Shown in pieces: positions 18,654-49,752 of a stretch of 64,000 nt of DNA. Source of the DNA: Akkermansia muciniphila (GTDB lineage Bacteria > Verrucomicrobiota > Verrucomicrobiia > Verrucomicrobiales > Akkermansiaceae); the NCBI GenBank assembly GCA_945890645.1, contig CAMDCV010000003.1:1-64000 (forward strand), given 5' to 3'. The translations under genes and the position numbers were made by a program. Position 1 is the stretch's first letter, and each line of letters starts with the position of its first letter. The notes beneath the pieces are model-generated. The model made no database searches. It saw only the letters and a list, made by a program, of their open reading frames with translations, and was not told the origin of the DNA.

Positions 18654-19349
18654 TCAGGCTTGATCTAACAGTTCCTCCACCCAACGTGGCACTTCCGTGC
18701 CGGCGTTGCCTTGGATTTGTTCCGCAAAGTGGTGGGCGTTTTGTGTGAGGTTGGGATTAATCTCGATGGTTTTGGCACCTTGTAGGTGGGCGATTTGCAC
18801 GAAGCCTGCCGCGGGATACACTGCGCCACTCGTGCCGATCGAAACGAAGACATCACACGCCACTAGGGCCGCTTCGATTTCTTCGAGGTGATAGGGCATT
18901 TCGCCGAACCAGACGATTGCGGGACGCACGAGACCCATGGCTTTGCAAAAGGGGCATTTGCTGCTGACTGTCATGATTCCCTGCCAGTGAAACGGCTCGC
19001 GACAGCTCGTGCACGTTGCTCGCAGTAAGGAGCCATGCATGTGAAGCACGCGCTTGCTGCCTCCGCGCTCGTGAAGGTCATCCACGTTCTGGGTGATCAA
19101 GGTAAGATCATTTCCCAAGTGCTGCTCAAGTTTCGCTAAGGCGCGATGGGCGGGATTCGGCTCCACTTGATGAAGATGGGCGCGTCGCATGTTGTAGAAT
19201 TCGTGAACGAGGCCGGGATTGCGCTCATAGCCCTCGGGTGTGGCCACGTCTTCGATGCGATGCCCCTCCCACAATCCATCGGAGGCGCGGAAAGTGGGGA
19301 CCCCTGATTCCGCAGAAATTCCCGCTCCAGTCAGTATCACGATTTTCAT
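18654..19349 (-). CDS. cobB: NAD-dependent protein deacylase, sirtuin class III
   Basis: A 231-residue Sir2 enzyme removing acyl groups from lysines using NAD. Motifs: GAGISAESGVPTFR, TQNVDDLHERGG, catalytic His105 in VLHMHGSL, and four zinc cysteines (Cys113, 116, 132, 135). Tyr52 and Arg55 in FYNMRR match the Tyr-x-x-Arg pair that lets SIRT5-like enzymes accept succinyl and malonyl lysine, so desuccinylation is likely. The start codon overlaps the stop of an upstream remnant frame by four bases. Confidence 0.94.
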   Translation of the reverse strand: MKIVILTGAGISAESGVPTFRASDGLWEGHRIEDVATPEGYERNPGLVHEFYNMRRAHLHQVEPNPAHRALAKLEQHLGNDLTLITQNVDDLHERGGSKRVLHMHGSLLRATCTSCREPFHWQGIMTVSSKCPFCKAMGLVRPAIVWFGEMPYHLEEIEAALVACDVFVSIGTSGAVYPAAGFVQIAHLQGAKTIEINPNLTQNAHHFAEQIQGNAGTEVPRWVEELLDQA

Positions 19350-19585
19350 AATGTAAAAGTATCATAGTATTTAAACGATTCATTGCAACTTCTTATGTGA
19401 TAGCCGATAGACATGGTGGCCATGCCTTGATAGACGACGACCAAGCTGGGCGAGCTACCGACTTCCCAGCCGCTGGTGCTGTTGATTTTGATCGCACAGA
19501 TGCTATACATGGCGGATTTCGCTTCGAGACCGATATGCCACTTGCCAAAGTGTTCGGTGTGGTAGCCTAGTTTTTTTAATAGGTT
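19346..19585 (-). pseudogene. chimeric remnant: sulfatase motif joined in frame to a SYLF (Ysc84) fragment
   Basis: An 80-codon frame opens after a TGA at 19586-19588 and ends in the cobB start. Its first part reads LLKKLGYHTEHFGKWHIG, the sulfatase motif seen intact as LKDAGYSTAIIGKWHLG in the gene at 20728. Then, in the same frame, it reads INSTSGWEVGSSPSLVVV, identical to the SYLF protein at 23686. At DNA level, 19415-19486 matches 23806-23877 at 70 of 72 positions by my alignment. No start codon, signal or complete domain is present. The remainder of the 19350-19657 gap holds nothing else I can name. Confidence 0.8.
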
Positions 19586-19657
19586 TCATGATAGTGATGC
19601 GTACATAAATAAGGACAGAGTAATGCGAGACGGGGAGTAATCGCCCTTAGAATGAAT

Positions 19658-20644
19658 CTAACGTATAATTGTAGTGGCTTGTTTTCTTAGAGTTGTCGAA
19701 GGTTTTTCTCCGAATAGTCGATAGTAGTTCGATGAGAAGCGCCCAAGATGAGTAATACCGTGATCGAGAGCGATGTCTGAAACGGAGCAACTCAATTGAT
19801 TGCTACAGCGTAATACGCGATAGATGGCATTGAGTCGCAATTTATTGAGATATTCTTGAGGTCCGCAATCAAAAGCGGTTTTGAAGGCGTATTCTAGTTC
19901 GCGCCTGCTAATTCGCAATCGGAGACAAAGATCTGTCACTTGAATTTGATCCGCGAGATGATCACGTAGCCAGTTCTCAGCGCGATGGGCGAGTCGCATG
20001 CGATTGCGATAGGAGTCTGGGGGCCGCGGTTTGGTTGTTGCTGATTCCCATGCGCTTGCAGCGATGTGCATGACAAAATCTGTGGCATTGGCCATGACCT
20101 CTTGCTGATAATTGGCTGTGGAATAAGCATCGCGCAATTCATTTTGGAGTTTAAGGAGACGTTGTTCGATCCTCGAGTAAGAGTCGGGCGTGAGTTGAAG
20201 CGCGGCAAATCGATCAAAGCTGACATTCTCCCCACCTGCCAGTTGCTGGGCTCTCTCCCATACATCCGCTGGGAAACTTACGGCAAGGCAGGAAAAACCG
20301 GGTGTAATGCTACCGTCGATTGGCTCCCCGGGTGGATTGCACAAAAGTGTTCCTTTCGTGACTTCGCATCCATACCAAGAGGAAAAAGCGGCATTGCGGA
20401 TTAAGCCAATCGACACCCAGCGGGGAGGTAAGAGGCCGTGTACGCGAGCTTTTACCTGTGCTTCTTGAAAATCCAGCGCCCAAGTGGAGGACTGAAACTG
20501 TTCGACCCGCGTGGGCAATCGTTTGGGAGTAAGGAAATCGGCTACTAGTTGCACACCCGAGAGTGCCTTTTCAAAGTCATCAGGAACATGAATAAGATGC
20601 TCAGTATGGAGCATCGATAGTCGTGTCTGAGAGAGTCGATTCAT
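19658..20644 (-). CDS. AraC-family transcriptional regulator, divergent from a sulfatase
   Basis: About 328 residues. The C-terminal third carries the double helix-turn-helix of the AraC family: VTDLCLRLRISRRELEYAFK, then CGPQEYLNKLRL and DIALDHGITHLGRFSSNYYRLFGEKPS. The N-terminal part is a sensor domain weakly like that of the regulator at 42538 (both carry a PPG turn followed by similar spacing), so the two are probably paralogs. I use the ATG at 20644; a GTG 11 codons upstream also exists. It faces the sulfatase at 20728, which it probably controls, together with itself. Confidence 0.88.
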   Translation of the reverse strand: MNRLSQTRLSMLHTEHLIHVPDDFEKALSGVQLVADFLTPKRLPTRVEQFQSSTWALDFQEAQVKARVHGLLPPRWVSIGLIRNAAFSSWYGCEVTKGTLLCNPPGEPIDGSITPGFSCLAVSFPADVWERAQQLAGGENVSFDRFAALQLTPDSYSRIEQRLLKLQNELRDAYSTANYQQEVMANATDFVMHIAASAWESATTKPRPPDSYRNRMRLAHRAENWLRDHLADQIQVTDLCLRLRISRRELEYAFKTAFDCGPQEYLNKLRLNAIYRVLRCSNQLSCSVSDIALDHGITHLGRFSSNYYRLFGEKPSTTLRKQATTIIR

Positions 20645-20727
20645 GACAGATTGTGCGCAAAGTGGATAGACGCACACCGTGTTTTTCTATATTGCTAGCT
20701 CTGTTACGTCAAGGCACACACAGTCGT
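20645..20727. promoter_or_regulatory. shared control region of AraC gene and sulfatase
   Basis: The 83 bp between two divergent starts must hold both promoters and probably the regulator's sites. GCACAC occurs twice in the same orientation (20672-20677 and 20714-20719), 42 bp or about four helical turns apart, a spacing AraC-type proteins can use. This is only a suggestion; such short repeats can arise by chance. Confidence 0.3.
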
Positions 20728-22218
20728 ATGAACACAATATTCATTATCTCTTCATTCGTTTTCTCCCTTCTGGGAGGAATTGTTTCCCGGCTCCATGCCA
20801 CGCCATTAAAACCCAATATCATTCATATCGTCGCAGATGATCTTGGTTGGATGGACGTCGGATTTAATGGGTGCACTGATATTAAAACGCCGAATATTGA
20901 CGCGCTAGCCACTGGCGGCGCAAAATTTTCTCAGTTCTATGTTCAGCCGATGTGTACGCCCACACGTGCCGCCCTGATGACGGGCCGCTATCCATTTCGT
21001 TACGGCCTTCAAACCATCGTTATTCCGGGGCCTGCGGGCTATGGGCTCGACACCAATGAGTTCCTGATGCCGCAGTGCCTGAAAGACGCTGGTTATAGCA
21101 CGGCGATCATCGGCAAGTGGCACCTCGGTCACGCGGATATGAAGTACTGGCCGAAGCAGCGCGGCTTCGATTACCAATACGGCGCGATGATCGGCGAGCT
21201 GGATTACCATACTCACAGTGACGCAGGCGTGCTCGATTGGTTCCGCAACAACAAACCTGTCACCGAAGAAGGTTATACCACTCAACTACTTGGCAAAGAT
21301 GCCGTGAAATACATTGGCGAACAAAGTAAGGACAAACCCTTCTACCTCTACCTCACCTTCAATGCCCCGCACACACCCTATCAAGCGCCGCAAGATTACA
21401 TCGACCGCTATAAAAACATTCAGGAGCCCACTCGCCGCATTTACGCAGGCATGGTGACTTGTCTTGACGACGAGATCGGCAAGGTCGTGGCTGCACTTGA
21501 GAAGAAAGGCTTGCGGGAAAACACGCTGATCCTTTTCCACAGCGACAACGGTGGCACGACGAATGCGATGTTTGCGGGGCAAATGGCGGATCTTTCCAAG
21601 ACGAAACTGCCTTGCGACAACGGACCCTATCGCGATGGCAAGGGCACGCTCTACGAAGGCGGCTGTCGAGTTGCCGCCTGCGCGAATTGGCCGGGCCAAA
21701 TCAAGGCGCAGTCCGTGGATGGCATCATACACGCCGTGGACATCTATCCTACGCTCGCTGCACTGGCAGGAGCTTCCACCGCTAAGTGCAAGCCGCTCGA
21801 TGGAGTGGATGTCTGGCCCACCATCGCTGAAGGAAAAACCTCAGCGCGCACCGAGGTCATTTATAACGTTGAGCCCTTCCGCGGTGCCGTGCGTCAGGGA
21901 GATTGGAAGCTCATCTGGCGAACACTGATTCCCACAAGCGCGGATCTTTATAATCTTGCCGAGGATCCTTATGAAAAAAACAACATCGCCGCTGCCCATC
22001 CTGACAAAGTTGCTGCGATGCAGGAGCGACTCAATTCGCTTGGCAAGGAGTCAGCCAAACCTCTCGCGTTGATTTACGTCGCCAGCGTAGGTCTCGCGCA
22101 TGGCAAACCACTTATCGCATCCGAGGACGGAAAAGAACGTGCATCGGTCGAGAACCATGGTCCGTCGATTACTGATGAGGGAATCGACACAAGTAAGAGT
22201 TTGACCGCTCCCAAATAA
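20728..22218 (+). CDS. exported sulfatase, arylsulfatase B-like
   Basis: About 496 residues with an N-terminal signal peptide (MNTIFIISSFVFSLLGG). Metal-binding ADDLGWMDVG is followed by the formylglycine motif CTPTRAALMTGR, with Cys76 as the residue to be oxidised, then IIGKWHLGH and LFHSDNGG. It should hydrolyse sulfate esters in the periplasm or at the surface; the natural substrate cannot be told. The frame is open from 20653, but that would overlap the divergent AraC gene, so the ATG at 20728 before the signal peptide is used. No formylglycine-generating enzyme is present in the window. A small membrane protein follows. Confidence 0.93.
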   Translation: MNTIFIISSFVFSLLGGIVSRLHATPLKPNIIHIVADDLGWMDVGFNGCTDIKTPNIDALATGGAKFSQFYVQPMCTPTRAALMTGRYPFRYGLQTIVIPGPAGYGLDTNEFLMPQCLKDAGYSTAIIGKWHLGHADMKYWPKQRGFDYQYGAMIGELDYHTHSDAGVLDWFRNNKPVTEEGYTTQLLGKDAVKYIGEQSKDKPFYLYLTFNAPHTPYQAPQDYIDRYKNIQEPTRRIYAGMVTCLDDEIGKVVAALEKKGLRENTLILFHSDNGGTTNAMFAGQMADLSKTKLPCDNGPYRDGKGTLYEGGCRVAACANWPGQIKAQSVDGIIHAVDIYPTLAALAGASTAKCKPLDGVDVWPTIAEGKTSARTEVIYNVEPFRGAVRQGDWKLIWRTLIPTSADLYNLAEDPYEKNNIAAAHPDKVAAMQERLNSLGKESAKPLALIYVASVGLAHGKPLIASEDGKERASVENHGPSITDEGIDTSKSLTAPK

Positions 22219-23685: not shown

Positions 23686-24276
23686 TTATTGTGCGGGGTT
23701 GATACGGGTGATTTTGCTGCCTTGCAGACCAAGCCCGCCCATCAGACCACGTTGATTGAAGAAGAAGGCGTAGGTGCTCTTGTTCATTGTGGTGGTGGTG
23801 AGGGAGGTGGCCATGCCTTGATCAACGACGACCAAGCTGGGCGAGCTACCGACTTCCCAGCCGCTGGTGCTGTTGATGTTTCGGAACGCGCTGTTGTCCA
23901 TCAGGAAGAGTGCGTAGCCGTATTGTTGCACACCGGCTTGCAAGCCATAGGACGCACCTGCGGTTTGGTAGTAGCCGCCGATCGAGCCATCGTTGCGAAT
24001 TAGGGCACCGTTGCCGCCTTGGGCGCCGACCATGAGGCCACCTTTCACGACGTGTGGGAAAACGAGCACACCCTTGGCGCGTTGGCCGAGTGCGCGTGCG
24101 CCGGCATTTTGTCGATAGAGTGAACGCAGAGCTGCGCGGGAGTCGCTAGCGATTTGCGAGGAGCTGGCACCAGCGGCGTTGGTTTGCGCGATGGGTCCGT
24201 TCGCGCAACTGGGCACGAAAGCGAGGGTCGCGAGTGAAGCCATGGCGAGGGCGATGAGTTTGGATGTTTTGTTCAT
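23686..24276 (-). CDS. SYLF-domain (Ysc84-like) lipoprotein
   Basis: 196 residues. The signal sequence ends in the lipobox FVPSC (Cys24), so the protein is lipid-anchored in the envelope. The rest is a SYLF/Ysc84 domain: AKGVLVFPHVVKGGLMVGAQ, GGYYQTAGASYGLQAG, and the conserved GWEVGSSPSLVVVDQG. In eukaryotes the domain binds phosphoinositides; bacterial copies are envelope proteins of unknown function. A fragment of this gene is duplicated at 19415-19486. It lies downstream of an alpha/beta-hydrolase lipoprotein on the same strand and ends at a clear terminator. Confidence 0.88.
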   Translation of the reverse strand: MNKTSKLIALAMASLATLAFVPSCANGPIAQTNAAGASSSQIASDSRAALRSLYRQNAGARALGQRAKGVLVFPHVVKGGLMVGAQGGNGALIRNDGSIGGYYQTAGASYGLQAGVQQYGYALFLMDNSAFRNINSTSGWEVGSSPSLVVVDQGMATSLTTTTMNKSTYAFFFNQRGLMGGLGLQGSKITRINPAQ

Positions 24277-26351: not shown

Positions 26352-27335
26352 TCACCATGGCAAGCCCGCACGAATTTCTTGTGTGAATGTTTGCTCAGAT
26401 TGACTCTTTTGCGCCGCCGCATTGATATGAGAACGGCGTTTTAATTCGGCGAAATCCAAGCCGCCTTTTAAGATGTAGTTGCGTTCGTAGAGCATTTCAT
26501 CGCCTTTACCATTTAAGAGTATGCGCCAGTCGAAAGGCATACGCTTCTTGGCATTGCGCTGTTGCCGAATAGCCGTGGTGCAGTTAGTTGTGATTGCATT
26601 ATACCAACGCGGTTTATCATGCAATCGGTTAATGGAAATCAGATATTCGAGAAAACGTTCGCGCGCGTGTTCGGGAGTAATGTTGAGGCGATAGAGATAC
26701 ACATCTTCACCCTTGCGGATGTTGGTGCGCAGGCGCATCACATCGGATTCCTCGGCGACGGTGTAGACTAATGTGAATTGGCGATAAAGGCCACCGATGG
26801 CAGAATAGGTTTGGCCTTTTTTCTTTCTCGTCTCGATCGATACACAGAGGGGCGGTGCATCAGCAAACTGAAAACTCACAATGGGATGAGCCATCCAAGG
26901 GGAGCCCCAGTAATTCACAGCCATATCAATGCCCGTAATTTGCGATAGGCGCACTGTGCGCGTTTTCCACTGCGGGGTAAAATCTTGGGCTGTGCGATAG
27001 TTAAAGGAGCGCACATTGTGAAATGTCACGACATCACCATCGATGTCCGCGTAGGCAAGTTCCGCGACATCTTGTTGCCACTCCCCTTCATTGCTCGGCT
27101 TTTGGCAGAGCCAGTACATCAGAATCAACGAGAACCACGTGGTGAATGCGACTAGTTTCTTTTTCCATGGTTTTACGTAGAAAAATCCCACGATGACCGC
27201 GACCGCATTGAACCCGGCCAGTGCTGGTGAATTTCCATCGTAGTAAAGGGCACCGACAGCCCAAGCAAATGCGATGAGCATGACAAGGCTGATGATGACC
27301 TTTCCGAGTAGGCGGAGGAGTTTCATTGCAATCAC
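26352..27335 (-). CDS. membrane-anchored DUF4105 (Lnb_N-like) protein
   Basis: 327 residues. Two or three N-terminal hydrophobic helices (about 10-30, 38-55 and 62-78) are followed by a periplasmic domain of the DUF4105/Lnb_N type. Supporting strings: DGDVVTFHNVRSFNYR, PLCVSIETRKKKGQTYS and the putative catalytic WYNAITTNCTTAIR, with a Cys in an NCT motif. This is a papain-like/NlpC-type fold region proposed to act on lipoproteins or peptidoglycan. An in-frame Met at residue 4 is an alternative start. Confidence 0.78.
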   Translation of the reverse strand: MIAMKLLRLLGKVIISLVMLIAFAWAVGALYYDGNSPALAGFNAVAVIVGFFYVKPWKKKLVAFTTWFSLILMYWLCQKPSNEGEWQQDVAELAYADIDGDVVTFHNVRSFNYRTAQDFTPQWKTRTVRLSQITGIDMAVNYWGSPWMAHPIVSFQFADAPPLCVSIETRKKKGQTYSAIGGLYRQFTLVYTVAEESDVMRLRTNIRKGEDVYLYRLNITPEHARERFLEYLISINRLHDKPRWYNAITTNCTTAIRQQRNAKKRMPFDWRILLNGKGDEMLYERNYILKGGLDFAELKRRSHINAAAQKSQSEQTFTQEIRAGLPW

Positions 27336-27370
27336 TTATTCAATGACGAACTGGGACAGTATACGCAATA

Positions 27371-28156
27371 CTAGAACGTGAAATTAACACCGATCAGCGC
27401 CCCAGACTGAGCAACATCGTAAATGAAATTGTTTTCAGAATAATCCGTGTCGAAGTAGCGATACCCCACTTCGAGCGATACGGACTCATTGAATCGATAG
27501 CCGAGGCTGGCTTGAACATTCCATGTCAAGTCGGAATCGACACCAAAGCCGCCGATGTCGCCTCTTCCGACAAAATACCATTGATCGTTGATGTCCCATT
27601 GAGTCCGAATCCCGATGATGGGATCAGTCCAGCTCTTGTCTCCGGAGCGAGTATCTTTGCGATCTAGAATCGGTCCATCCGACGTTGCTTCCAACTCAAG
27701 TGTGAGGGAATTATGACGAATACCCGCGTAGAGATCGACATAGCTTTCCGCTGATTCAGAGACACGGTAGAAGGCAACTAACTCTCCGAGGAATTGCTCA
27801 AAATCGAGATTAACATTCGTTTCAAGTGGACCTGGCAAAGTGCCGGAGGTTCCGAGCTCCGCATAAAAAGCGTCAGCGATGATGCCCCACCGGCCTTTGC
27901 GTGCTTCGAATTGAAGAGCGGCGGCCATTTCAAGAATGTCGAAAATATCATCGAATCCGGCATCGATCTCTGCGGGAAATCCTTGCGGTCCCGTGGTGCC
28001 ATCGATCGCGGTGAGCCACCCATAAGGTTGCAAACGGAATTCCCACGGGCTCTCTGTTGTAGTAAAGCTGGCGGGAGCTGGGTCGTTAGCGACAGATCCC
28101 GCCATGGCGAGAAGTGAGGTTGCGCAGAGTAAAGAAGGTATGAGGATGCGTTTCAT
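27371..28156 (-). CDS. outer-membrane beta-barrel protein, paralog of the one at 22826
   Basis: About 261 residues from the ATG that starts the signal peptide (MKRILIPSLLCATSLLAMAG). It ends GALIGVNFTF, a barrel-type C-terminus. WEFRLQPYGWLTAIDG, EIDAGFDDIFDILEMAAALQ and IIADAFYAELG align with the barrel at 22826, with moderate identity, so the duplication is old. It sits directly downstream of mscS on the same strand. Confidence 0.8.
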   Translation of the reverse strand: MKRILIPSLLCATSLLAMAGSVANDPAPASFTTTESPWEFRLQPYGWLTAIDGTTGPQGFPAEIDAGFDDIFDILEMAAALQFEARKGRWGIIADAFYAELGTSGTLPGPLETNVNLDFEQFLGELVAFYRVSESAESYVDLYAGIRHNSLTLELEATSDGPILDRKDTRSGDKSWTDPIIGIRTQWDINDQWYFVGRGDIGGFGVDSDLTWNVQASLGYRFNESVSLEVGYRYFDTDYSENNFIYDVAQSGALIGVNFTF

Positions 28157-28194
28157 AGGATGTTTGTTCGTATGTTTCATAGTACTTGTTCTTT

Positions 28195-30243
28195 TTATGT
28201 GTGAACTAACGGATTGCTTGCTAGTTCTACTCGTATCGGATTGTCGGGGTCGAATTGGATGTAGCGTTGAGGAGATGCGATCACAATGCCTGCTTCCGCA
28301 AAGGCCTTGTCGATCATAAATCGAAGATCACTGCCAAGAGTATCTCGGCTGACCATGTTCGTGTCTAGCCAGAAGAGCAGACGAAATACCAGTGCCTTAT
28401 CGCCGAAATCTTCGAAACGCACTTCAGGTTCCGGATTTTTGAGAATTTGCCCGTGTTCTTTTGCGATGGCGAGCAAGGCATTCGAAACTTCACGGGTAGG
28501 AGTTCCATAATCAACACCCACGCTGATGGAGTGACGAAGTAGGCTGTCCGTAAGGTTCCAGTTGGTCACTTTATTTTCCAATAAAGTGCTATTGGGAATA
28601 AGCGTGTCGATGCCGTTTCCGTGCCTTATGATCGATGCCCGTATACCAATGCTGTGTATGGTGCCTGTAACGCCTTCGATTTCCACGGAGTCGCCTACTT
28701 TGAGAGGGCGCTCGAAGATCAGAATAATCCCGCTGATGAAATTTTTAAGTAGTGTTTGGGTGCCGAAGCCGACGCCGATGGCGAGTGCACCACCGAGGAA
28801 AGCGAATACGGTGAGGGGGATGTGAACGGTATTCATCCCGTAGATGACCAATAGTGCGAGCCCTGAAATAAATCCTGCTTTTCTGATGATTCCTGCGGCG
28901 CTTTCTGAGAGCTTCAGCTTATGAGAAGCTAGCTTGTCGAAGCGGCGCATAAGAAAGCGGAGAATTAACCAGCCGACAGTAAGTATGCAGGCTAGGCGCA
29001 TGAGCTTGCCTATCGTGATGGAGCGGTAGGTGGGGACTTTTTTTCCGTCGATGATTTCGGTTTCCTCGGCGAGATAGAGCTCCATATTCCAAAATGATAC
29101 CAGACCTGAGGAGATGCGATCCATCATTGGTGTGCCTCGTTTGTCGCCTGTGAGGTCATCCATGGAGAATGAAATGAGGCGCTCCAAAGCTTCAACGCGC
29201 TGAAGCGAATTCCGCAGGCTTGTGGGGTCGATCTGATCCACTGCAGCAGTGGTCCCACCTTCGAGTCGAATTCGTGCGATACCGATCCAATCATCGACAC
29301 GTTTTTTTAATTCCGCGAGTGTCGTAAGCGATTGTTTCCGGATTGATGGATCCTCGGTATTAAAACTTTCAAAGCGTGATTCCCAAAAGGATTTTTCCAG
29401 GTTGAGAAATTCGACTTTCCACAGCAACAATGGGTCAGATTGATCGGTAGCGGGGGAATTAGACTTGAGTAGAGTCAATGCCTCCGTTCGTTCATTGGCG
29501 ATGCGTTTAAGAACGGAGTCGAGGTCGGCTTGCGAGAAGTTGACTTGACCAGAGATTGCCTTGAGCTGGAGTTCTGCCAATTGTGATTGCGCTTGGATCA
29601 TGTCCAACTCCGCTTGTTCCGCTTCGAGGCGTAGATTCAGCCGCGCGACGAGTTCCGCAGCGATGCGTGAGGAAACTTGTTCCGTTATCCTGTTGCGTTG
29701 CGCGGCTAATCTTTCTTCCGGCGTGCCCGTGTTAGTGGCATCGAGAAATCGCCGTTCAGACTGTTGGTGTTCGAGTAGTTGATTGCGTGCATTTTCAAGA
29801 TCCGCCCCAAAGATGCGCCGTTGCGTATCACCAGCTTTCTTAGCCTTGGCAAGTCGAGCGAGATTTTCTCGAACTTCGTCTAACAAAATGACAGAATAGG
29901 GAGGCGTCTGTGCAAAGCCACGCCATGAGGTTGTGGATAGGGTCGCGGCATCGCGGGCTAATTTTGCTTTGTTCGCAATATCGAGGGAGGCGAGATGTTG
30001 TTGGCAGGCAAATTCCAAGAGCTGAAGGCGGTCACGAAGGGCGTGGTCCGCATCCGCAGGCAGTGCCTGCATCTCAGCGCGGGCCGCGGCGAGACGTTGC
30101 TCGATTGCACTTGGAGAGGAAAAGTCATCGGTGGCGGCATCTTGGGCTGAGAGCGATGGCGTGAACGCAAGCAATGCGGCACATAGCGACCCGCGTAGGG
30201 AAGCGGGTATTGCAAAAGCGTTGAATCGGTGAATGATTGACAC
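28195..30243 (-). CDS. MscS-family mechanosensitive channel with long periplasmic domain
   Basis: 682 residues. Signal peptide (to about residue 34), then roughly 330 residues of charged coiled-coil-like helices as in MscK/MscM-type channels. Several membrane helices follow around 400-520. The pore helix and beta domain carry GALAIGVGFGTQTLLKNFIS and IFERPLKVGDSVEIEGVTG, and RASIIRHGNGIDTLIPNS is the canonical MscS signature. It should open on membrane tension after osmotic downshock. Its start lies 2 bp after the stop of the second hydrolase lipoprotein, so the two are translationally close. Confidence 0.92.
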   Translation of the reverse strand: MSIIHRFNAFAIPASLRGSLCAALLAFTPSLSAQDAATDDFSSPSAIEQRLAAARAEMQALPADADHALRDRLQLLEFACQQHLASLDIANKAKLARDAATLSTTSWRGFAQTPPYSVILLDEVRENLARLAKAKKAGDTQRRIFGADLENARNQLLEHQQSERRFLDATNTGTPEERLAAQRNRITEQVSSRIAAELVARLNLRLEAEQAELDMIQAQSQLAELQLKAISGQVNFSQADLDSVLKRIANERTEALTLLKSNSPATDQSDPLLLWKVEFLNLEKSFWESRFESFNTEDPSIRKQSLTTLAELKKRVDDWIGIARIRLEGGTTAAVDQIDPTSLRNSLQRVEALERLISFSMDDLTGDKRGTPMMDRISSGLVSFWNMELYLAEETEIIDGKKVPTYRSITIGKLMRLACILTVGWLILRFLMRRFDKLASHKLKLSESAAGIIRKAGFISGLALLVIYGMNTVHIPLTVFAFLGGALAIGVGFGTQTLLKNFISGIILIFERPLKVGDSVEIEGVTGTIHSIGIRASIIRHGNGIDTLIPNSTLLENKVTNWNLTDSLLRHSISVGVDYGTPTREVSNALLAIAKEHGQILKNPEPEVRFEDFGDKALVFRLLFWLDTNMVSRDTLGSDLRFMIDKAFAEAGIVIASPQRYIQFDPDNPIRVELASNPLVHT

Positions 30244-30245
30244 GG

Positions 30246-31832
30246 TTATTTCAAATGAAGATGAAGGATGCGGCGCGCCTCAGCGATACCTTCCGGATGC
30301 TCGTGTGAGCCGTGGCCGGAGGGGACAATTTTTTCGGAATCGGCACCATGCAAATGCGAACTCCAGTAGGCAACGACACCGTCCGAGGAGTTCGGAGTGT
30401 CACCCTTGCCTCGATCTCCTACGATACTGTGAAAGGGAACTCGCGGGGCGATGGGAAGTTTATTGATCTCTACAACGAACGGATTTGTCGGCGAAAGTGT
30501 GCCGATGCTATTTGGTGCGTTTTGCATTGCCAGACCGGCCACATCAGCTGTGGCAGCCGAGATAGCGACGTTGCGAACATCAGCAATCAATCCCGGTGCC
30601 TTGATGAGACGTGTGGCGATGCTGCCGACCCAATTGGTAGCGAGAACGGATCCTCGGTGAGGACCGGAAAAAAATATGGCACGGTCGATTTCTTTACGGT
30701 CTTCAAATACCAGCGAATTGAGCAAAAGCTCCTTGCTGTTACCTGTAAATGACGTTTGCGCAGGGGAACGTCCGAAGGCCTTGATCCATAACTTGTCGCC
30801 AGCATCAGTGACCATGAGGCGGCTGATGAGGCTACCCATGCTGTGACCAATGATGACCATGTTCTTATGGCCGGGGAACTCTTGTTTGACTTCATCTAGT
30901 TCTCGACGGAGCAGTGAAGCGGAATAGGGATATGGATAACCACTCGGATAACTGAACACCCAAAACTGGTAGCGTTTTCTGAGTTGCGGATCTTGCAAGA
31001 GTTGGAAATACATCGGAGCAAAAGTGGCCGGTGTGCTGTCGAGACCGTGGACCATGAGGACGGGAATCCGCTTGGGGTCGTAGGGCTGTGTGAAGTTGAG
31101 ATTCGCGGTGTCGTTGTAGCGAGAGGGATGAAGCAGGCGGGCGAGGCCTAGTTTATCGATGCGGGCTTTTGAGAGTCCAAGCATCATTGCCGCACCGAAG
31201 TCGGCTGCGAGTGGGCGGGTTTTACCGGCGAGGGAAACGGTGTCCACCTGATAAGGATCAAGGAGTTCCAGGATGGCAGAGTTACCCTCGAAGCTTACCA
31301 CGGCTGTGAAGTTGCGGAGCGGGATTTGCGCGCGCATTTCCTTATGGCCGATGCCATCAAAGGATGTCACCAATACGATTGGCGCACCAATTCCTTCGGT
31401 CTTGAACTGATGTTCTGCATACTTGCCCTCAAAGGCTAAGGTGTCTGCGGGAAAGATTTGAGCATTTTGCGGAGCGATTCCAGCAGGAGCGCGGCCTTTA
31501 AGACTCGTGATGCCTGCCGCGTCAGAGATCGTCAGGGAATTCCTCCACGGATTGGCTCCACTCGTGCCAAGTTTTTCCACCAAGCGCGCGACAGAGTAGT
31601 TGTAGGTGGGAACAGCGGATGCGTCCCCGCGCAGCATTAGTTCTTGGGATTTTCGGATTGCCGTCAGATGATGCTCAATGCCAGCGCTGGTATCTGGAGC
31701 AAGAGCGGGGGCAATTGGTTTCGCCGTATGTACGGATACCGGCGCGGAACAGTGGGATAGGAAGACCACGCCAAGTAACAATCCGAACGAGCGGAGCAGG
31801 GTGGTGGAGCGGATTTTTTGCTGTCGTATCAT
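30246..31832 (-). CDS. alpha/beta-hydrolase lipoprotein, lipase-like (copy 2)
   Basis: 528 residues with a signal peptide and lipobox LSHC (Cys28). Paralog of the gene at 24315: LMVHGLDSTPATF, WVFSYPSGYPYPYSASLLR, nucleophile elbow IIGHSMGS (Ser331), then SIVGDRGKGDTPNSSDGVV and PSGHGSHEHPEG with candidate acid and His. It is immediately upstream of mscS (2 bp), which suggests a shared envelope-stress or lipid-turnover role; that is inference. Confidence 0.85.
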   Translation of the reverse strand: MIRQQKIRSTTLLRSFGLLLGVVFLSHCSAPVSVHTAKPIAPALAPDTSAGIEHHLTAIRKSQELMLRGDASAVPTYNYSVARLVEKLGTSGANPWRNSLTISDAAGITSLKGRAPAGIAPQNAQIFPADTLAFEGKYAEHQFKTEGIGAPIVLVTSFDGIGHKEMRAQIPLRNFTAVVSFEGNSAILELLDPYQVDTVSLAGKTRPLAADFGAAMMLGLSKARIDKLGLARLLHPSRYNDTANLNFTQPYDPKRIPVLMVHGLDSTPATFAPMYFQLLQDPQLRKRYQFWVFSYPSGYPYPYSASLLRRELDEVKQEFPGHKNMVIIGHSMGSLISRLMVTDAGDKLWIKAFGRSPAQTSFTGNSKELLLNSLVFEDRKEIDRAIFFSGPHRGSVLATNWVGSIATRLIKAPGLIADVRNVAISAATADVAGLAMQNAPNSIGTLSPTNPFVVEINKLPIAPRVPFHSIVGDRGKGDTPNSSDGVVAYWSSHLHGADSEKIVPSGHGSHEHPEGIAEARRILHLHLK

Positions 31833-31851
31833 AATCAGTGGATGAATCGTG

Positions 31852-32655
31852 TTAGAAATGCCAAGCTATTCCAGAAATCAGCTTGTAATCGAGATTCTCG
31901 GGTACCAGTGGTACTTCGATACTAAAAGATAGGGCAAATTGTTTTTCTGAACCCCACACGCGGGTGGCTCCGAGTTCGATGCGGTGGCGGTCTGATTCGT
32001 TGAGAAAATTCCAGCGTGGTTTGTAACTTACTGTGCCGGACCAATGACTGCTGATCTTGAAAACAAGGGGAAATTTTAGTTCAAACGAGGAGACGTCATT
32101 TTCTCTTTCTTCCATCGGAGTGAAGCTGTATTCGATGTTGATTCCGAAATTAATGGAATCATTCGCATCGTAGCGGAGTGCAAAAATCGGGCGCAGTATC
32201 AGTGCATTATCGCTGAGAACGGGATCTTCGGCCGTATCGAATGCCGCGTTTACACCAGCGCCCCATCGCAAGGTAGGCGAGATGCGACCAACGAAACCGC
32301 TTCGTAGTTCCAGATCTCCTATACCGGAAGCATTTGAAGTGGAAGTCTCATTCCATTTTATGGGAACCATCAATTGCAAACCAAGCGCGAGATTCTCTGA
32401 GATCGCAAATCCACTGCGTAGGGAATTTTCGATTTTCCAGAAATCTCCGTCGTCGCCATGATTCTCGTAGCTGAGTTCGGTGAACGCACGGCGGCTGATG
32501 AGGGTGGTATCGTAAGGCAGGAGCCAAGAATTCTTTGTGCTATGCTCGAACCACTGCGGGGAGACATCTGAATCAGTTGACTGAGCGCAGAGCGACCACG
32601 GTAAGAGGTTCGCCGCTGCGAGGCAACTTAGATAAGTGGTCAGAGATGATGTCAT
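31852..32655 (-). CDS. exported outer-membrane beta-barrel protein, unknown
   Basis: 267 residues with a signal peptide (to about residue 25, LPWSLCAQ). Alternating-residue strands follow (DLELRSGFVGRI, LRWGAGVNAAFD, GTVSYKPRWNF), ending in SGIAWHF, a barrel C-terminus. No specific family recognised; aromatic-compound transporter-like barrels are one possibility. Same strand and close spacing with both neighbours. Confidence 0.7.
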   Translation of the reverse strand: MTSSLTTYLSCLAAANLLPWSLCAQSTDSDVSPQWFEHSTKNSWLLPYDTTLISRRAFTELSYENHGDDGDFWKIENSLRSGFAISENLALGLQLMVPIKWNETSTSNASGIGDLELRSGFVGRISPTLRWGAGVNAAFDTAEDPVLSDNALILRPIFALRYDANDSINFGINIEYSFTPMEERENDVSSFELKFPLVFKISSHWSGTVSYKPRWNFLNESDRHRIELGATRVWGSEKQFALSFSIEVPLVPENLDYKLISGIAWHF

Positions 32656-32670
32656 AAACGAATACTTTTT

Positions 32671-33468
32671 TTATGATTGTGGGAACAAGAAAGTGAGACC
32701 CATGCGCAGACCCCACTCGGGACCTTGGTCGGGTTTTTCTACGTAGTAGCGGGCACCAATAAATGCCTGAACTGGTTGATCGCCGATTTTAAAGAGCTGA
32801 CTGACGACAAGATTCACCGGCACAGTCCATTGTTCGTTATACCAATCATACGTGCTCTCCGTGTTTAGTGAAAACGTAGTCTTAGTGGGAGTAATATAGG
32901 AAACGAAAGGCTGGAGAAATGTGGCACTGATAGAGTCACGCGAATCGTCACCGGAGACGTCCCAGATGTGATTGGCGAGCACGCCATAGGTCCAAGGTCC
33001 ATCTTGCTTTAAGAGAACTGCGGTAGGGCCCATGCCGAATTTTTCTGAACCGAGAAGAGGATCGGTGGCCGTAGGAATGAGAAATACAGGACCCACTCCC
33101 CAGATCAGCGAGCTATCTTTTGGCGAAAAGAAAAAACTCTGCACGGTGTCGCCGAGTCCGAACTCATCGAGCGAGTCTCCTGCGGGTGCAAAACCTTCTT
33201 GATCGATGATGGGCAAAATTGTGCGCGAGATGAGGTTGACATCCTTATTGAAATCAAAAGGAATCACAGGCTGAATATTGGTAGTCCATTTAGTGCCATC
33301 GCCTGGGCCAATGCCAAAATCCATATTGCTTTGAATCGGTATGCTAATGAGATCGGCAATCGGGTTGGCGAGTTTTTTAGCGAGATCAGTTTCCTCTGCG
33401 GATAGGAACTCTGCGGATAGGAATGCCGTTGAGAGAACAAGGGATACTGTGATTGATTTGGTTTTCAT
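32671..33468 (-). CDS. exported barrel-type transporter-like protein ('neuromedin U' misnomer family)
   Basis: 265 residues with a signal peptide. The strings LAKKLANPIADLISIPIQ, NIQPVIPFDFNKDVNLIS and RTILPIIDQ are typical of a bacterial outer-membrane family often mislabelled neuromedin U. It probably forms a barrel; the substrate is unknown. It is 15 bp upstream of the preceding barrel gene, so they form a pair. Confidence 0.78.
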   Translation of the reverse strand: MKTKSITVSLVLSTAFLSAEFLSAEETDLAKKLANPIADLISIPIQSNMDFGIGPGDGTKWTTNIQPVIPFDFNKDVNLISRTILPIIDQEGFAPAGDSLDEFGLGDTVQSFFFSPKDSSLIWGVGPVFLIPTATDPLLGSEKFGMGPTAVLLKQDGPWTYGVLANHIWDVSGDDSRDSISATFLQPFVSYITPTKTTFSLNTESTYDWYNEQWTVPVNLVVSQLFKIGDQPVQAFIGARYYVEKPDQGPEWGLRMGLTFLFPQS

Positions 33469-33516
33469 AGGGTATGTTGATTCTTATGTTTCAAAATTCT
33501 TTAGGCAATTCTTGAG

Positions 33517-35949
33517 TTAGCGACGTGATCGACCACCGCCACCGCTGCTTCTACTAGTTCCGCTACTGCGCGAGGAGCTTTGGAACGATTGGGTGCGTTG
33601 TGTCTGTGTGTTGCCACGGGCGCGGGAACTCGACATGGAGTCAAGCGATTGGCGGTCAGTGGTTTGCGGACTGGCGGCTGGGCGGGTCGGTTGAGTTGAG
33701 GGCTGCGGACGAGTAGCAGGACGGGTCGGTTGAGTCGAGGGCTGTGGGCGAGTCGTCGGGTTTTGCGGTTGTGCCGCGGGTTTTGTCTGTGGCTTTTCTA
33801 CAGGTTGAAAGCCGCCACCGCCTCCGGTGTTGCTAGACCAGTTGCCGTCAGAGTCTTTTTTGTAAACGTTGCCATTGCGCGCGGCATAGACATTGTCGTT
33901 ACGGGTTTTTGCCACAGCGCCTTGGCCGTTTTTAGTGTCCCAAGCGGCAGCGCCGGTACCTTCGGTGGTGCGGATGGCGGCGGCGCTGCCATTGGCTCCC
34001 GATACTCCGCCAGCGACGGCGCCTTTACCAGTGTAGGGATTGTAGGCGGCGGCGCGACCTGCCGAACCATAGGCGGTACTGACGCGCCCCCCAGCAGCGC
34101 TGGTTCCGGTGTAAGGATTGTAGGCGCGACCTGCGGTGGCAGTACCGTAGGGAGTGGCGCGATAACCTTGGGCGGCGTAGCCCCCCGTGTAGGGGTTGTA
34201 GGCGGAGCGGTATCCGGCGCTACCGTAGGGGCCATAGGCATACGCACTACGGGAATAAATACCAGTGGCGGGATTGTAGGCGGCGGCGTATCCCGCACCT
34301 CCGTAGGGTCCATAGACACGGCCTGCTGCTCCGTAGTAACCGCCGTATCCATAGTGATAGACCGCGCCGCAGCCATAGGAATACCAGGCAGCGGGAGGGT
34401 AGCAGTAGTGATCGTTATTCTCGTTGATGATCGCACCAACGATCATTCCCATTCCAAACATCAATACGCCATTGGCAGCGACGTACTCGCCGCTGTAGCC
34501 GGCGGTCTGATTGTAAATGACGGTGTCCGGCGTGGATTCCTTGATGGTGACATAGGTTACGTTGTGCGCGGGGCTGGTGGGCGGGATGGTGTAAATGGCA
34601 GGCGGTACGGAGGTGGACCAGGCCCACGGACCAGTGGCGGTTTTTGCGGAAAACCAGACACCTTGATCGCAGCAGTAGTAACCGTTATCGACGAGGAAAA
34701 CGGAGAAGGGCGAGTTGACGGCGTATTTAACGCTGGTGCTGGGGATGGGTTGGAAATTCGGTTCGCCCTTGTAAGTTACTTCGAGAGTCGGCGGTTTGGA
34801 GGAATCGACAAAGGTGGATTGCGGCACGGAGGCCAGTAGTACGGCATCCGCCGCTTCATCGGTGCCGGGCACGGTGGCTTTTATAAATGCGAGAGAATGG
34901 TCATCAGGGATTTTTGTAAAATCTTCTGGAAGATCGGCGCTGGCGGCGCTCCAAGGACCATCGAGTTTCTGCGCACGAAACCAACGACCGGCGACTTGGT
35001 AGTAAAATTTACCACCAGCCGAATCGAGCAGGAGCAGACTTTCGGTATTGGTGATCTCTAGCAATTTTGTGTTAGGGATCGGTGAATATTCTGGCTCACC
35101 AGTGGTCAGCAGGAGCTCGGCGGGTAGTGTGCTGGCATAAACGTGCTCAGCAACGTCGGACTTTTTGGCGGGGATGTTTTTACGCACTTCTGCCCAGTTT
35201 TCGTCAGCGGGAAGCTTGTTGAGTTTATCGGGGAGTTGCGTGGCGACTGTCCATGGGCCTTCGGCAGAGGTGGCGGTTAGCCAGTGATCTTCGTTGAGTA
35301 AGTAATACGCTTTCGTCGATGGCTGATAGAAAACATCCCAGTTGGTGTTGAGGGCAAACATCAGATCAGGATCGGAGGCGACGACTGGCTTGAACTGCGG
35401 CTCGCCCATGAAGATGACTAGCACGGCGGGTTTGTTGCTGTAGAAAATTTTCGGCGGATCAAGATTCACGGCCACTTGTTTTTGGACAGCGGCGGATTCG
35501 GCATCGAGGCAAGTGAGCACGCGGTCGAGCGAGACGGTGATGAGTCGCTCGGGTGGGCTGAGCACATTGAGGGCTGCGATGAGGGCTTTCTCGTCATCAC
35601 CAGAGAGACCCGCGAAGCGATAGTCGCGCTTCGTGGTGAAAACTTTGACGAGACGCGTTGTTTGATCGACGAGTGTCCTTGCCTCAATCTCGGCGACGCC
35701 AAAGGTGGGGTCCTTGAGCACTCCCTCCACTTCGATCGCGCAGCGGAAACGCATAGTGGTGTGATCTTTCCACTCATCGATCTGTGGCTGATAGACGGTG
35801 AGTTTTTTATTTTCCAAAACATGCTCGCGCGGCCAACCAGGATCGGCAGGCGGCTGTGTTGTTGTGGCGGGAGCGTTTTGTTGCGCAAACATCGGCAGTG
35901 GAGCCGTTAGGATGGCAACGAGTGACAGAAGGCGGAGTTGTGATTTCAT
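33517..35949 (-). CDS. large exported protein with Tyr/Asn/Pro/Gly repeats and Arg/Ser-rich tail
   Basis: About 810 residues. Signal peptide MKSQLRLLSLVAILTAPLPM followed by a region (about 30-560) with several repeated beta modules of the form WFRAQKLDGPWSAAS and WFSAKTATGPWAW. Residues about 570-700 are repeats built on AYNPYTG and YGPYGSAGY. The C-terminus is low complexity (TRPQPSTQPTRPA, then Ser/Arg/Gly). Proteins of this layout are annotated in other bacteria as carbohydrate-binding family V/XII-like, which is unproven. The frame is open to 36111, but the ATG before the signal peptide at 35949 is chosen. Its signal peptide resembles that of the gene at 38902. Confidence 0.75.
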   Translation of the reverse strand: MKSQLRLLSLVAILTAPLPMFAQQNAPATTTQPPADPGWPREHVLENKKLTVYQPQIDEWKDHTTMRFRCAIEVEGVLKDPTFGVAEIEARTLVDQTTRLVKVFTTKRDYRFAGLSGDDEKALIAALNVLSPPERLITVSLDRVLTCLDAESAAVQKQVAVNLDPPKIFYSNKPAVLVIFMGEPQFKPVVASDPDLMFALNTNWDVFYQPSTKAYYLLNEDHWLTATSAEGPWTVATQLPDKLNKLPADENWAEVRKNIPAKKSDVAEHVYASTLPAELLLTTGEPEYSPIPNTKLLEITNTESLLLLDSAGGKFYYQVAGRWFRAQKLDGPWSAASADLPEDFTKIPDDHSLAFIKATVPGTDEAADAVLLASVPQSTFVDSSKPPTLEVTYKGEPNFQPIPSTSVKYAVNSPFSVFLVDNGYYCCDQGVWFSAKTATGPWAWSTSVPPAIYTIPPTSPAHNVTYVTIKESTPDTVIYNQTAGYSGEYVAANGVLMFGMGMIVGAIINENNDHYCYPPAAWYSYGCGAVYHYGYGGYYGAAGRVYGPYGGAGYAAAYNPATGIYSRSAYAYGPYGSAGYRSAYNPYTGGYAAQGYRATPYGTATAGRAYNPYTGTSAAGGRVSTAYGSAGRAAAYNPYTGKGAVAGGVSGANGSAAAIRTTEGTGAAAWDTKNGQGAVAKTRNDNVYAARNGNVYKKDSDGNWSSNTGGGGGFQPVEKPQTKPAAQPQNPTTRPQPSTQPTRPATRPQPSTQPTRPAASPQTTDRQSLDSMSSSRARGNTQTQRTQSFQSSSRSSGTSRSSGGGGRSRR

Positions 35950-36016
35950 TTTTTGCCGTGTTTTGTTTGTAGGAGCGGTTTGTTGATAAATTTCTGTGTC
36001 AAGGGGATTTGCTAGT

Positions 36017-36952
36017 TCACCACTGCAAGGAGCAGCCGATGGTAAATGTGTTGTTGTCAGACCCGGTGTTTTCCCGAGTACGAATACCGATGTAGGCGAT
36101 CTTGAAACCAAAATCGCGGGTGATTGAAATGCCGGTGCTCACACCAAAGCCGAGATTGCCTTTGATGTCGTTGGCCGATGCATGATTGATCGTGGACTCC
36201 CCACCGTAACCATAGCCGCCGCTGACCCCCACCCATAGACCGGGCATGAAAGTGTAGATGAGATGAGCTTGGCCGATCAGGTAGGGATCTTCTTTGTGTT
36301 CCACGCCACCAAAAAACTCATCGTTGTCGGTGTAGAATGTCACCGAGGAGGAAAGCTCCATCGTCCATTTGCCGAGCGTGTGGACAACCCCGAACTGGGG
36401 AGTGAAGGTGTATCGGTTCGTGCCGAGATTGATCAGCTTGTCCTCAAAATATTCGCCCGTGGGTAAGGTCATCACAAAACCCATGCCGACGATGGTCTCG
36501 GTGTTGGTGGCTTTGCGGTAATCGATAAATTCTTGTCCGTAAAGCGGCGGGGCACCATAGAGATTGACTGCGAAGCGCAGCGCTGTGTCCGTCCAGCCGT
36601 CGCGTTCCGTGGCGGCGGGGGATCCATTCAGCAAACCGCTCCAAGAACCGCTTTGATAGTTTTGGGTGATATCCACGCGGGCCGATTTGCCGCAGAATTT
36701 AAAGGCGTGGATGTATTTAATGGCCGCCGTGTGCAATTCAAATTCACCATCCTCAATGCGTAGCACTGGGTTGAGGGTGATATCGCCCTCGGTGTAGGCG
36801 TAGGCCAAGCCGCCGAAATTGCCGCCCAGCGGCAGATGGCTCCAACGGCGCGGTTCGATGTCCTGCGCGAGGCAGGGTTGCGCGAGGATGAAGCAAGCGA
36901 GTGCAACGCATCTACTAGTGAGCCATTGGCCGGGTTGATTGGTTTTAGTCAT
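36017..36952 (-). CDS. outer-membrane transporter-like barrel, phenol MetA-pathway family
   Basis: About 311 residues from the ATG giving MTKTNQPGQWLTSR. The signal peptide ends near ACFILAQPCLAQ. Barrel strings such as LPLGGNFGGLAYAYTEGDI, VGMGFVMTLPTGEY and VGVSGGYGYGG are typical of the MetA/SphA-like family of hydrophobic-compound transporters. It ends TIGCSLQW. Its start overlaps the stop of the upstream membrane protein by 8 bp, so they are co-transcribed. Confidence 0.78.
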   Translation of the reverse strand: MTKTNQPGQWLTSRCVALACFILAQPCLAQDIEPRRWSHLPLGGNFGGLAYAYTEGDITLNPVLRIEDGEFELHTAAIKYIHAFKFCGKSARVDITQNYQSGSWSGLLNGSPAATERDGWTDTALRFAVNLYGAPPLYGQEFIDYRKATNTETIVGMGFVMTLPTGEYFEDKLINLGTNRYTFTPQFGVVHTLGKWTMELSSSVTFYTDNDEFFGGVEHKEDPYLIGQAHLIYTFMPGLWVGVSGGYGYGGESTINHASANDIKGNLGFGVSTGISITRDFGFKIAYIGIRTRENTGSDNNTFTIGCSLQW

Positions 36953-37448
36953 GCTTCTTCGGTGAGAGGAATACTCCGGCCAGCCCACCGCTTCCGAGGT
37001 GACGCTTAAGCGCAGAGAGCAGGTTGTAAAACAACAAGGCACCTGTCACGCAGATCGTGTTCGCCCAGATGTGCGGCATGTCGCGGTGCTGAAAAACATT
37101 CATCAAGGCGGGGCCGAAGCCTCCCTGCTCATGCCGCGACTCCAAGCTCTTTTCTAACAGCAACACTACCAGTGTTCCGGACGCATAGAGCAAAGTGCGC
37201 CACACCACATCCACCAGCACTGGTTGGTTCCGCACCCATGCGCCCAGCGGGACATGTTCTAGAATCAGCACGACCTTGGCGAGAATCAAAGCGCCGATCA
37301 GCACTGCGGAGAAACTACCAAAACGGATCTGATAGTCCTCAAGGATGAGGACCTTGAGGACCATGAAGACTCCCAGCCAAGCGGCGAAAAACAGCGTCAC
37401 CAAGACTACCGCCTTCATCTCGTGTTTGAGTTTTTCCTGAACGCTCAT
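36945..37448 (-). CDS. small four-helix membrane protein, unknown
   Basis: 167 residues starting MSVQEKLKHEMKAVVL, with about four hydrophobic helices (12-33, 43-66, 78-98 and 122-142) and a basic C-terminus. No family recognised. It lies between a DUF1254 gene and a MetA-like barrel gene in the same train. A 13-codon relic with nearly the same N-terminus (MSIQEKLKHELKA) lies at 39693-39734. Confidence 0.7.
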   Translation of the reverse strand: MSVQEKLKHEMKAVVLVTLFFAAWLGVFMVLKVLILEDYQIRFGSFSAVLIGALILAKVVLILEHVPLGAWVRNQPVLVDVVWRTLLYASGTLVVLLLEKSLESRHEQGGFGPALMNVFQHRDMPHIWANTICVTGALLFYNLLSALKRHLGSGGLAGVFLSPKKHD

Positions 37449-37458
37449 GTTGGATGAT

Positions 37459-38886
37459 TTAAGGTTTGGAAAGCTGAATGGCTGGAGGAGTCCACGTGCC
37501 AGCACCGGGTGGCAGGATGGAAGGCGATTCGGTCTGCGGCCAGTACAGTCGCATGACCAGATAGACCGGGCCATCCGGCGCGGGAAGCCAGTTGCTTTCC
37601 TTGTCGGCGCCGGGGCTGTCTTTCCGGATGTGTAACGTGATCGAGCCGTCGCCATTCTTCTTCATGCCGGGCAGCATGGGGGAATTGATCAGGTAGCGGT
37701 TGATCGGGTTCTTGATCAGCAATTGGCTTTTTCCGTCATAGATCGTGACCGACCAGAACGCCTTTGCCGGCGGAAATTTTCCTGCGGGAAAGGTGATCTC
37801 GTAATTGTTTTCCGAGGTATCGATCACTTCGCCATCGGGCAGCCAACGGGTCATCGGATACACGGCTTCCTCGGCGTTGTTGCCGAAGATGCCGGCCTGC
37901 GCGGCGGCGGTGCGGAGCAGCCAGTCGCCCTTGTAGAAATCGCGGTTGCCGAAGGCGGAGCCGACCTGCCAGCCGTTGATGCGTTTGCCGATGCTACCCA
38001 TGCGTTCCTGGACTTTCGCCATGCCGGCTTTCACGCCTTCGAGCGCTGCGGCCTTGTGAGTCTGCGGGAGGTCTTTGAAATCGAACTTCTTCTCGGCACC
38101 CACGCCGATGCGTGCGAGCTTGGCGCGGATTTCCTTTTCCTCAGGGCCGGGCGGCGCGACTTGCATCACGAATTCCAGCAATCCGAAAAAATTCTCCTTC
38201 GCGAGCTGGGCGTTCGCTTTGGGAAAATCAATCGCCGCCGTAGTGGGCGGCGCTGCTTGCTTGAGAAACGCCGAGAGCGGGCGCAACTGATAGCCGTCCT
38301 GGATTTTCGCCACGTTTTTCATGTCGTCCGGCCCGAACAACTGCGTGCGGATGATGGAGATGCAGAACTGCGAAGACGAACGCAGCACGCCCTTGATCCC
38401 AACGGGTGCTTCGCCCTTCCAATCCGGTCCGGCGACAAGGAAATCACCCGCGCCGTTACCCGTGGCGCGACTGCCGATGTAGCCGAAGTTGAAGGTGTTC
38501 CAATCGACCAACTGCACGGAGAAATAGCGCATTTTCTCGACTTCCGGCACGGAAATCACCCACGGCTCGGCGCGCAGATCGAGGCAGGCGAAGGAATACG
38601 GGGTGTCGCTGTTAGGCACAATGACAGCCGTGTCCTCGTAGGTGAAGACGCGGCGGCTGTGAACAAGCTCGTTCATCGGGCTCTTGTATTGCGACGAGGA
38701 TTTGTCCAACCAGAACTCATAGCTCGCGGTGTAGGCCATGACCAGCGGCAGACCATAAATGTAGGCATCTTCGGCGACCGCCTTCACCTCCTCTGCCGTC
38801 GGCGCGTCAGATTGGGCGGTGCAAGGATGGATCGTAGCGGTGAACGAGGCGATGGTCGCCGCCAGCAGAAAGCTCATACGATTCAT
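37459..38886 (-). CDS. exported DUF1254/DUF1214 protein (copy 1)
   Basis: 475 residues with a signal peptide (to about residue 24). The DUF1254 part reads AEDAYIYGLPLVMAYTA and VIVPNSDTPYSFACLDLRAEP. The C-terminal DUF1214 part reads AFWSVTIYDGKSQLLIKNP and SNWLPAPDGPVYLVMRLYWP. The family has known structures but no settled reaction. It is closely related to the gene at 48342. Neighbours are a sulfatase, a MetA-like barrel and unknown membrane and exported proteins, all on the same strand. Confidence 0.92.
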   Translation of the reverse strand: MNRMSFLLAATIASFTATIHPCTAQSDAPTAEEVKAVAEDAYIYGLPLVMAYTASYEFWLDKSSSQYKSPMNELVHSRRVFTYEDTAVIVPNSDTPYSFACLDLRAEPWVISVPEVEKMRYFSVQLVDWNTFNFGYIGSRATGNGAGDFLVAGPDWKGEAPVGIKGVLRSSSQFCISIIRTQLFGPDDMKNVAKIQDGYQLRPLSAFLKQAAPPTTAAIDFPKANAQLAKENFFGLLEFVMQVAPPGPEEKEIRAKLARIGVGAEKKFDFKDLPQTHKAAALEGVKAGMAKVQERMGSIGKRINGWQVGSAFGNRDFYKGDWLLRTAAAQAGIFGNNAEEAVYPMTRWLPDGEVIDTSENNYEITFPAGKFPPAKAFWSVTIYDGKSQLLIKNPINRYLINSPMLPGMKKNGDGSITLHIRKDSPGADKESNWLPAPDGPVYLVMRLYWPQTESPSILPPGAGTWTPPAIQLSKP

Positions 38887-38901
38887 TGTGTCATCAGTGG
38901 C

Positions 38902-39696: not shown

Positions 39697-39734
39697 GCTT
39701 TCAGTTCGTGTTTCAGTTTTTCTTGGATGCTCAT
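39693..39734 (-). pseudogene. 13-codon relic of a membrane-protein start (or leader peptide)
   Basis: The frame MSIQEKLKHELKA then TGA copies the first 13 residues of the intact protein at 36945 (MSVQEKLKHEMKA), with mostly synonymous DNA differences. Its TGA overlaps the ATG of the exported protein at 38902-39696. It is either debris left when the rest of a second copy was deleted, or a retained leader that couples translation to the next gene. Confidence 0.6.
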
Positions 39735-39768
39735 TGAATTAGACAAATGGCTTCTCGTCCCGCGTCCC

Positions 39769-42117: not shown

Positions 42118-42183
42118 GGTGGATGGTGTGTATGAAGAGGGGAGATGCTGAGAAAATTGATTTGCCTACTTCGCTAGCGAGTA

Positions 42184-42390
42184 TCAGATGGGCGATGGGT
42201 AGGCGCGTTCGGTGACAGTCATCTTCGTGTCAGGGAGCGGCTTGGCATTGCGGGCATCGGTTTCCGAATACGCCGGACGCGCTGGTGGAAGAATCGGCAA
42301 AATTGTGCGATCAAGCTCTGCGGTTTGTGCCGTTAGGTATGCGCTACAGGTGATGCCTGTAATACGCAGCGAGTGGTATAAAAACTTCAT
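42184..42390 (-). pseudogene. truncated N-terminus of a second large sulfatase
   Basis: 68 codons: a hydrophobic leader (MKFLYHSLRITGITCSAYL), then AELDRTILPILPPARPAY and TDARNAKPLPD. These align with the linker LDRTSLPIPEPK...LDARDAKAPP of the intact sulfatase at 39769. The frame stops shortly afterwards, before any catalytic motif. It sits directly between the intact sulfatase and the AraC regulator, so it now occupies the promoter-proximal position. It could still be translated as a short secreted peptide. Confidence 0.7.
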
Positions 42391-43509: not shown

Positions 43510-43539
43510 AAAGGATTACTGATTGCCGAAGCGATCTGC

Positions 43540-49727: not shown

Positions 49728-49752
49728 TTCGTGAATCCAGTTTCTTTAGTTG

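Follow-up and report, generated by a model that had tools for sequence, protein, structure and literature searches.

The locus at bases 19346-19585 of a stretch of Akkermansia muciniphila DNA (64,000 nucleotides, hereafter the window) raises the question of whether an open frame joining pieces of two protein families is a gene or a chance product of debris and, if it is debris, how the pieces came to lie together. A sequence-only reading had described an 80-codon chimera of a sulfatase motif and a SYLF fragment. The chimeric frame is real and runs on the minus strand from 19585 to 19346, a strand that the earlier description did not give; its minus-strand translation is NLLKKLGYHTEHFGKWHIGLEAKSAMYSICAIKINSTSGWEVGSSPSLVVVYQGMATMSIGYHIRSCNESFKYYDTFTL*, and the plus strand of the same bases contains several stops in frame 1. 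The 80 codons correspond to 79 residues and a stop, but they form a stop-to-stop frame and not a startable ORF. The features of the locus are listed below.

18654 to 19349, minus strand: cobB-like SIR2 gene (Pfam SIR2, E 4e-49; ortholog in the sister genome G009 at 82%), whose ATGA gives the frame its stop.
19346 to 19585, minus strand: stop-to-stop frame of 79 codons and a stop, with no start codon before the sulfatase motif (translation, codon list).
19350 to 19414, minus strand: AT-rich cobB leader, with no detectable relation to the segment 19490-23880 (local alignment against shuffles).
19415 to 19489, minus strand: SYLF scrap of 75 bp, internal to the gene at about residues 133-157 of 196 (repeat D1, 96%; three-way comparison with G009).
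19490 to 19601, minus strand: sulfatase scrap of about 112 bp, with a +1 frameshift near an A7 run (tblastn, frameshift-aware alignment, own-genome search).
19658 to 20677, minus strand: AraC-family regulator (Pfam HTH_18), kept beside the sulfatase in relatives.
20653 to 22218, plus strand: intact sulfatase, divergent from the AraC gene (Pfam Sulfatase, E 7e-63; 65-79% in 11 relatives), not the source of the scrap.
23686 to 24276, minus strand: intact SYLF (Ysc84) gene (Pfam Ysc84, E 1.7e-8; G009 ortholog at 88%), which matches the scrap at 23806-23880.

The stretch 19346-19601 is taken to be debris and not a gene, with a probability of roughly 0.93. It is probably non-coding debris at a rearrangement joint, made up of the sulfatase piece of about 112 bp, the 75-bp SYLF piece, and the cobB leader. 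Within the frame, 31 sulfatase-like residues are followed by 25 SYLF-matching codons and then by the AT-rich leader, and one homology gives way to the other at about base 19490. The frame is immediately preceded by a TGA, and from there through the sulfatase motif the codon list holds no ATG, GTG, or TTG. An ATG occurs first at the M of AMYSIC, and the longest started ORF within the frame, at about 54 codons, does not include the sulfatase motif. Since 316 stop-to-stop frames in the window are as long, the length of the frame and the in-frame joining are unremarkable.

Neither piece represents a complete domain. Residues 2-32 of the frame, LLKKLGYHTEHFGKWHIGLEAKSAMYSICAI, match the sulfatase sequence LLKKQGYATGHFGKWHIGPESKPGTYGIDAI at 68% over 31 residues, the matches coming from genomes of another family in the same order, and the Pfam Sulfatase profile by itself reaches E 0.019 and 14.8 bits, under the cut-off of 25. 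Frameshift-aware alignment extends the sulfatase homology upstream to base 19601 in another frame, with RITIMK before the frameshift and LLKK after it; thus, the sulfatase piece was already broken. A complete catalytic domain (PF00884) is lacking from a piece of only about 30 residues that is itself frameshifted, and the 25 SYLF codons give no Pfam match in frame and fall short of a complete SYLF/Ysc84 domain (PF04366). The same alignment does not support an upstream active-site motif, DYSPSR, before 19601. The sulfatase part had been described as more diverged than the SYLF part, which is borne out, with the frameshift as an additional mark of decay.

The chimeric frame is absent at the DNA level from 57 genomes and at the protein level among the matches listed for 387 genomes of the order, which are separate sulfatase or SYLF matches; nor was the chimera found in the sister genome. 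This lack of conservation upholds the earlier suggestion of debris. A real small gene, encoding a chimeric or short protein upstream of cobB and possibly coupled with cobB by way of the ATGA overlap, would draw on the open frame, on that overlap, and on the internal ATG that yields the started ORF of about 54 codons. It is nevertheless very improbable, given the missing start before the sulfatase motif, the frameshift inside the homology, the incompleteness of both domains, and the absence from these relatives, and the ATGA belongs to cobB itself. The overlap of the frame's stop with the cobB start, to which the sequence-only reading had drawn attention, does exist, the stop being the TGA inside the cobB ATGAAA, but it is uninformative. 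Because cobB begins with ATGAAA both here and in the sister genome, any frame arriving in the matching phase stops at this TGA.

An assembly artefact could be suspected in a draft of 66 contigs that is possibly metagenome-derived, but such an origin is scarcely credible. Both ends of contig C4 and the first bases of contig C9 have 118-149 identical bases in common, and so these contigs break at a repeat. The 75-bp repeat is shorter than these identical ends and carries diverged bases, and the locus lies well inside a contig of 171 kb with unique flanks.

The SYLF scrap agrees with bases 23806-23880 at 72 of 75 positions (E about 1e-27), the intact gene lying 4.4 kb away, and no further copy of the scrap was found in the genome. 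Over the same 75 bases, the SYLF genes of this genome and of the sister differ at 12 positions. The scrap carries this genome's base at 11 of these 12 and the sister's base at one, where the intact SYLF gene seems to have changed; two other differences occur in the scrap alone. Because the scrap holds this genome's base at 11 of 12 positions, its separation from the local SYLF lineage is placed, on these base matches, well after the divergence from the sister, and the fragment is recent, as had been proposed. Its own differences fall at codon positions 1, 2, and 3 in the numbers 1, 0, and 2, and with n = 3 the codon-position test is without power.

The sulfatase scrap has no comparable source nearby. 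The neighboring sulfatase at 20653-22218 fits it poorly, and none of the other sulfatases of this genome that matched fits well. Its subfamily was not found in this genome, where the best matches reach 58% over 19 residues. The relic was also considered as a part of the AraC cassette; however, no consistent sulfatase occurs within the 5-7 kb that follow AraC downstream in the 11 relatives.

The AraC gene and its divergent sulfatase form a compact cassette, adjacent in 11 of the 11 relatives checked. A close AraC occurs in 16 of the 387 genomes of the order, a patchy distribution, and the gene was not found elsewhere in the genus. Such a distribution, with the pair side by side in all 11 relatives, points to horizontal spread. 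Some 4.3 kb, the cassette among them, separate the scrap from the intact SYLF gene; this segment is lineage-specific, and its ORFs encode the regulator, the sulfatase, membrane proteins, and OMP-like proteins. In the sister genome, SYLF, cobB, PEPCK, and carB lie on different contigs, with SYLF and cobB intact and a dehydroquinate-synthase-like gene upstream of cobB. Thus, both edges of the region from 19.35 to 23.69 kb are synteny breaks. A search of genome contigs by way of cobB returned no close relative. Elsewhere in the window, about 16 kb (27273-43540) are inserted relative to the sister, between blocks that are contiguous there, and a pair of related genes, DUF1254-like as judged by eye, lies side by side at 48342-51219, a third copy being located near 37530-38580.

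These pieces and their orientation, the frameshift, the missing start, the absence from the relatives searched, and the flanking synteny breaks are matters of observation, on which a history of displacement by incoming DNA may tentatively be built, at somewhat under even odds; its order of events and its recombination mechanism we infer. DNA bearing the AraC-sulfatase segment would have entered beside SYLF, with homology inside SYLF joining one of its ends and an illegitimate joint the other, and at the far border a fragment of the resident SYLF gene would have been left behind. The edge of the incoming DNA would be the broken sulfatase, and that its subfamily was not found in this genome is as expected for such an edge. 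A later deletion may then have brought the stranded debris up to cobB. Against this history, the SYLF scrap lacks the 3′ end expected of a simple displacement, so that an extra deletion must be assumed, and neither the donor nor the ancestral joint was seen. The open frame across the joint would be a matter of chance, at one in three. Homology-facilitated illegitimate recombination (HFIR) combines one homologous end with one illegitimate joint (PMC6382021) and would yield an anatomy like that of the SYLF locus. HFIR is known from transformation experiments.

The closest parallel is icdC beside prophage e14 in E. coli K-12, where a short direct fragment is likewise split from its intact gene by inserted DNA. 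In keeping with a displaced fragment of that kind, the SYLF scrap is in direct orientation and lineage-specific DNA lies between it and the intact gene. However, e14 is an integrase-bearing element and icdC is the 3′ end of its gene, whereas the SYLF fragment is internal and no integrase was seen between the copies; on these two grounds, duplication of an integrase attachment site was rejected. The inserted DNA is a single element in the case of icdC and e14, whereas the DNA inserted here may not be one element.

Further scraps show whether the locus stands alone. In 651 kb of this genome, about one sixth of it (contigs C2, C3, C4, and C9), five gene-to-intergenic scraps of 46-159 bp were kept; each is in direct orientation to its intact gene and lies 3.2-7.8 kb from it. 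Once the list had been seen, multi-copy palindromic families, tRNA repeats, and inverted repeats were removed from it by eye. The genes concerned are SYLF, a HAD-phosphatase-like gene, a sulfatase (C4), a peptidase-like gene (C9), and the 3′ end of a large gene (C2); the names HAD-like, peptidase-like, and cysH (below) come from reading translations. Two scraps were found in 382 kb of the sister and one in 390 kb of a third genome of the family, and 347 kb of E. coli K-12 gave icdC beside e14 together with known repeat classes. Direct orientation holds for eight of eight scraps (p 0.004), a descriptive value since the scraps were chosen by eye after the list had been seen. The second scrap in the window is the following.

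51325 to 51426, minus strand: scrap of the HAD-phosphatase-like gene, 102 bp, 83% identical to 48129-48230 within the gene 47303-48295 (self-comparison, six-frame reading, codon-position test).

This scrap matches the 5′ part of its gene, its 17 differences falling at third codon positions in 12 cases, and sits within about 6.6 kb that are missing from the sister. The sister has a cysH scrap of its own; the match in this genome stops at the gene, and the segment adjoining that scrap was not found beside the gene in this genome. On contig C4, an 86-bp scrap (85538-85623) is 95% identical to part of the sulfatase gene 78001-79470 and is flanked on one side by a GntR-like regulator and on the other by a large gene with a cytochrome-like CxxCH motif, an arrangement that resembles the AraC/cobB joint. 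On contig C9, a cargo at 85004-87160, comprising an XRE-like regulator, a second small gene, and a DUF5131-like gene, lies between the intact peptidase-like gene and its 159-bp 3′ scrap; genome G005 has part of this cargo at 90% identity.

Copies that have drifted neutrally since their duplication should show no third-position bias. Pooled over the five scraps, however, differences between scrap and gene fall at the three codon positions in the numbers 8, 3, and 30 (third position 30/41, p 2e-7), and the pooled scraps thereby share the bias of icd and icdC (1, 0, and 11). This argues that most of them are orphaned alleles or paralogues and not fresh copies, stranded plausibly when DNA was inserted beside the gene. 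The earlier proposal of ongoing local copy-and-join events is therefore supported in part, as other scraps exist and all are local and direct, but the third-position bias argues against most of them being new copies.

The same bias bears on tandem duplication followed by deletion, the ordinary route of pseudogene decay. Here, 4,391 bp from mid-SYLF to mid-sulfatase would have been duplicated head to tail, the sulfatase/SYLF junction being the novel joint, and the second copy would have been deleted except for 75 bp. Such a history accounts for the direct orientation, the locality, the abrupt joint, and the high identity of 72/75. However, it predicts neutral differences at all codon positions, whereas those of the five scraps lie mostly at the third, and the sulfatase gene must have been there beforehand. 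Local alignment against shuffles also found no trace of a second copy in the cobB leader. This route is thus possible but rather unlikely.

A templated patch is less probable again. In a single step, a break or replication gap within or next to a decayed sulfatase would have been filled with a copied SYLF stretch, through local template switching or short-patch double illegitimate recombination (SPDIR). SPDIR is described as placing a short patch of genomic DNA at another site and as having relaxed requirements for identity (PMC7192050). The short size, clean edges, and high identity of the scrap would suit a patch, and one event would be enough. Yet the sulfatase homology does not restart beyond the patch, and at neither edge could matching microhomology be made out in the present sequence. 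Filling by classical NHEJ is unlikely, since Ku (PF02735) had no match in this genome, which is 97.6% complete. SPDIR draws on ectopic DNA in general. No preference for nearby donors in the same orientation is expected of it, whereas the scraps kept are all local and direct. For the SYLF scrap, displacement by incoming DNA is accordingly preferred to tandem duplication with deletion, and the latter to a templated patch, with all three possible.

As a single locus, this joint is of little importance and is probably ordinary. It illustrates that an in-frame "fusion" of two families can be a chance joint of debris, startless and overlapping the next gene in a way that carries no information. Scraps that are local, direct, and biased toward third-position differences, some of them beside inserted DNA, could cheaply mark the borders of cassette insertions that lack an integrase. 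It is a speculative extension that cassette insertions in a Verrucomicrobia-like lineage repeatedly strand fragments of 50-200 bp of the neighboring resident gene without an integrase. If this were true, such scraps would allow allele-displacing insertions to be read back, together with the end through which each one came in.
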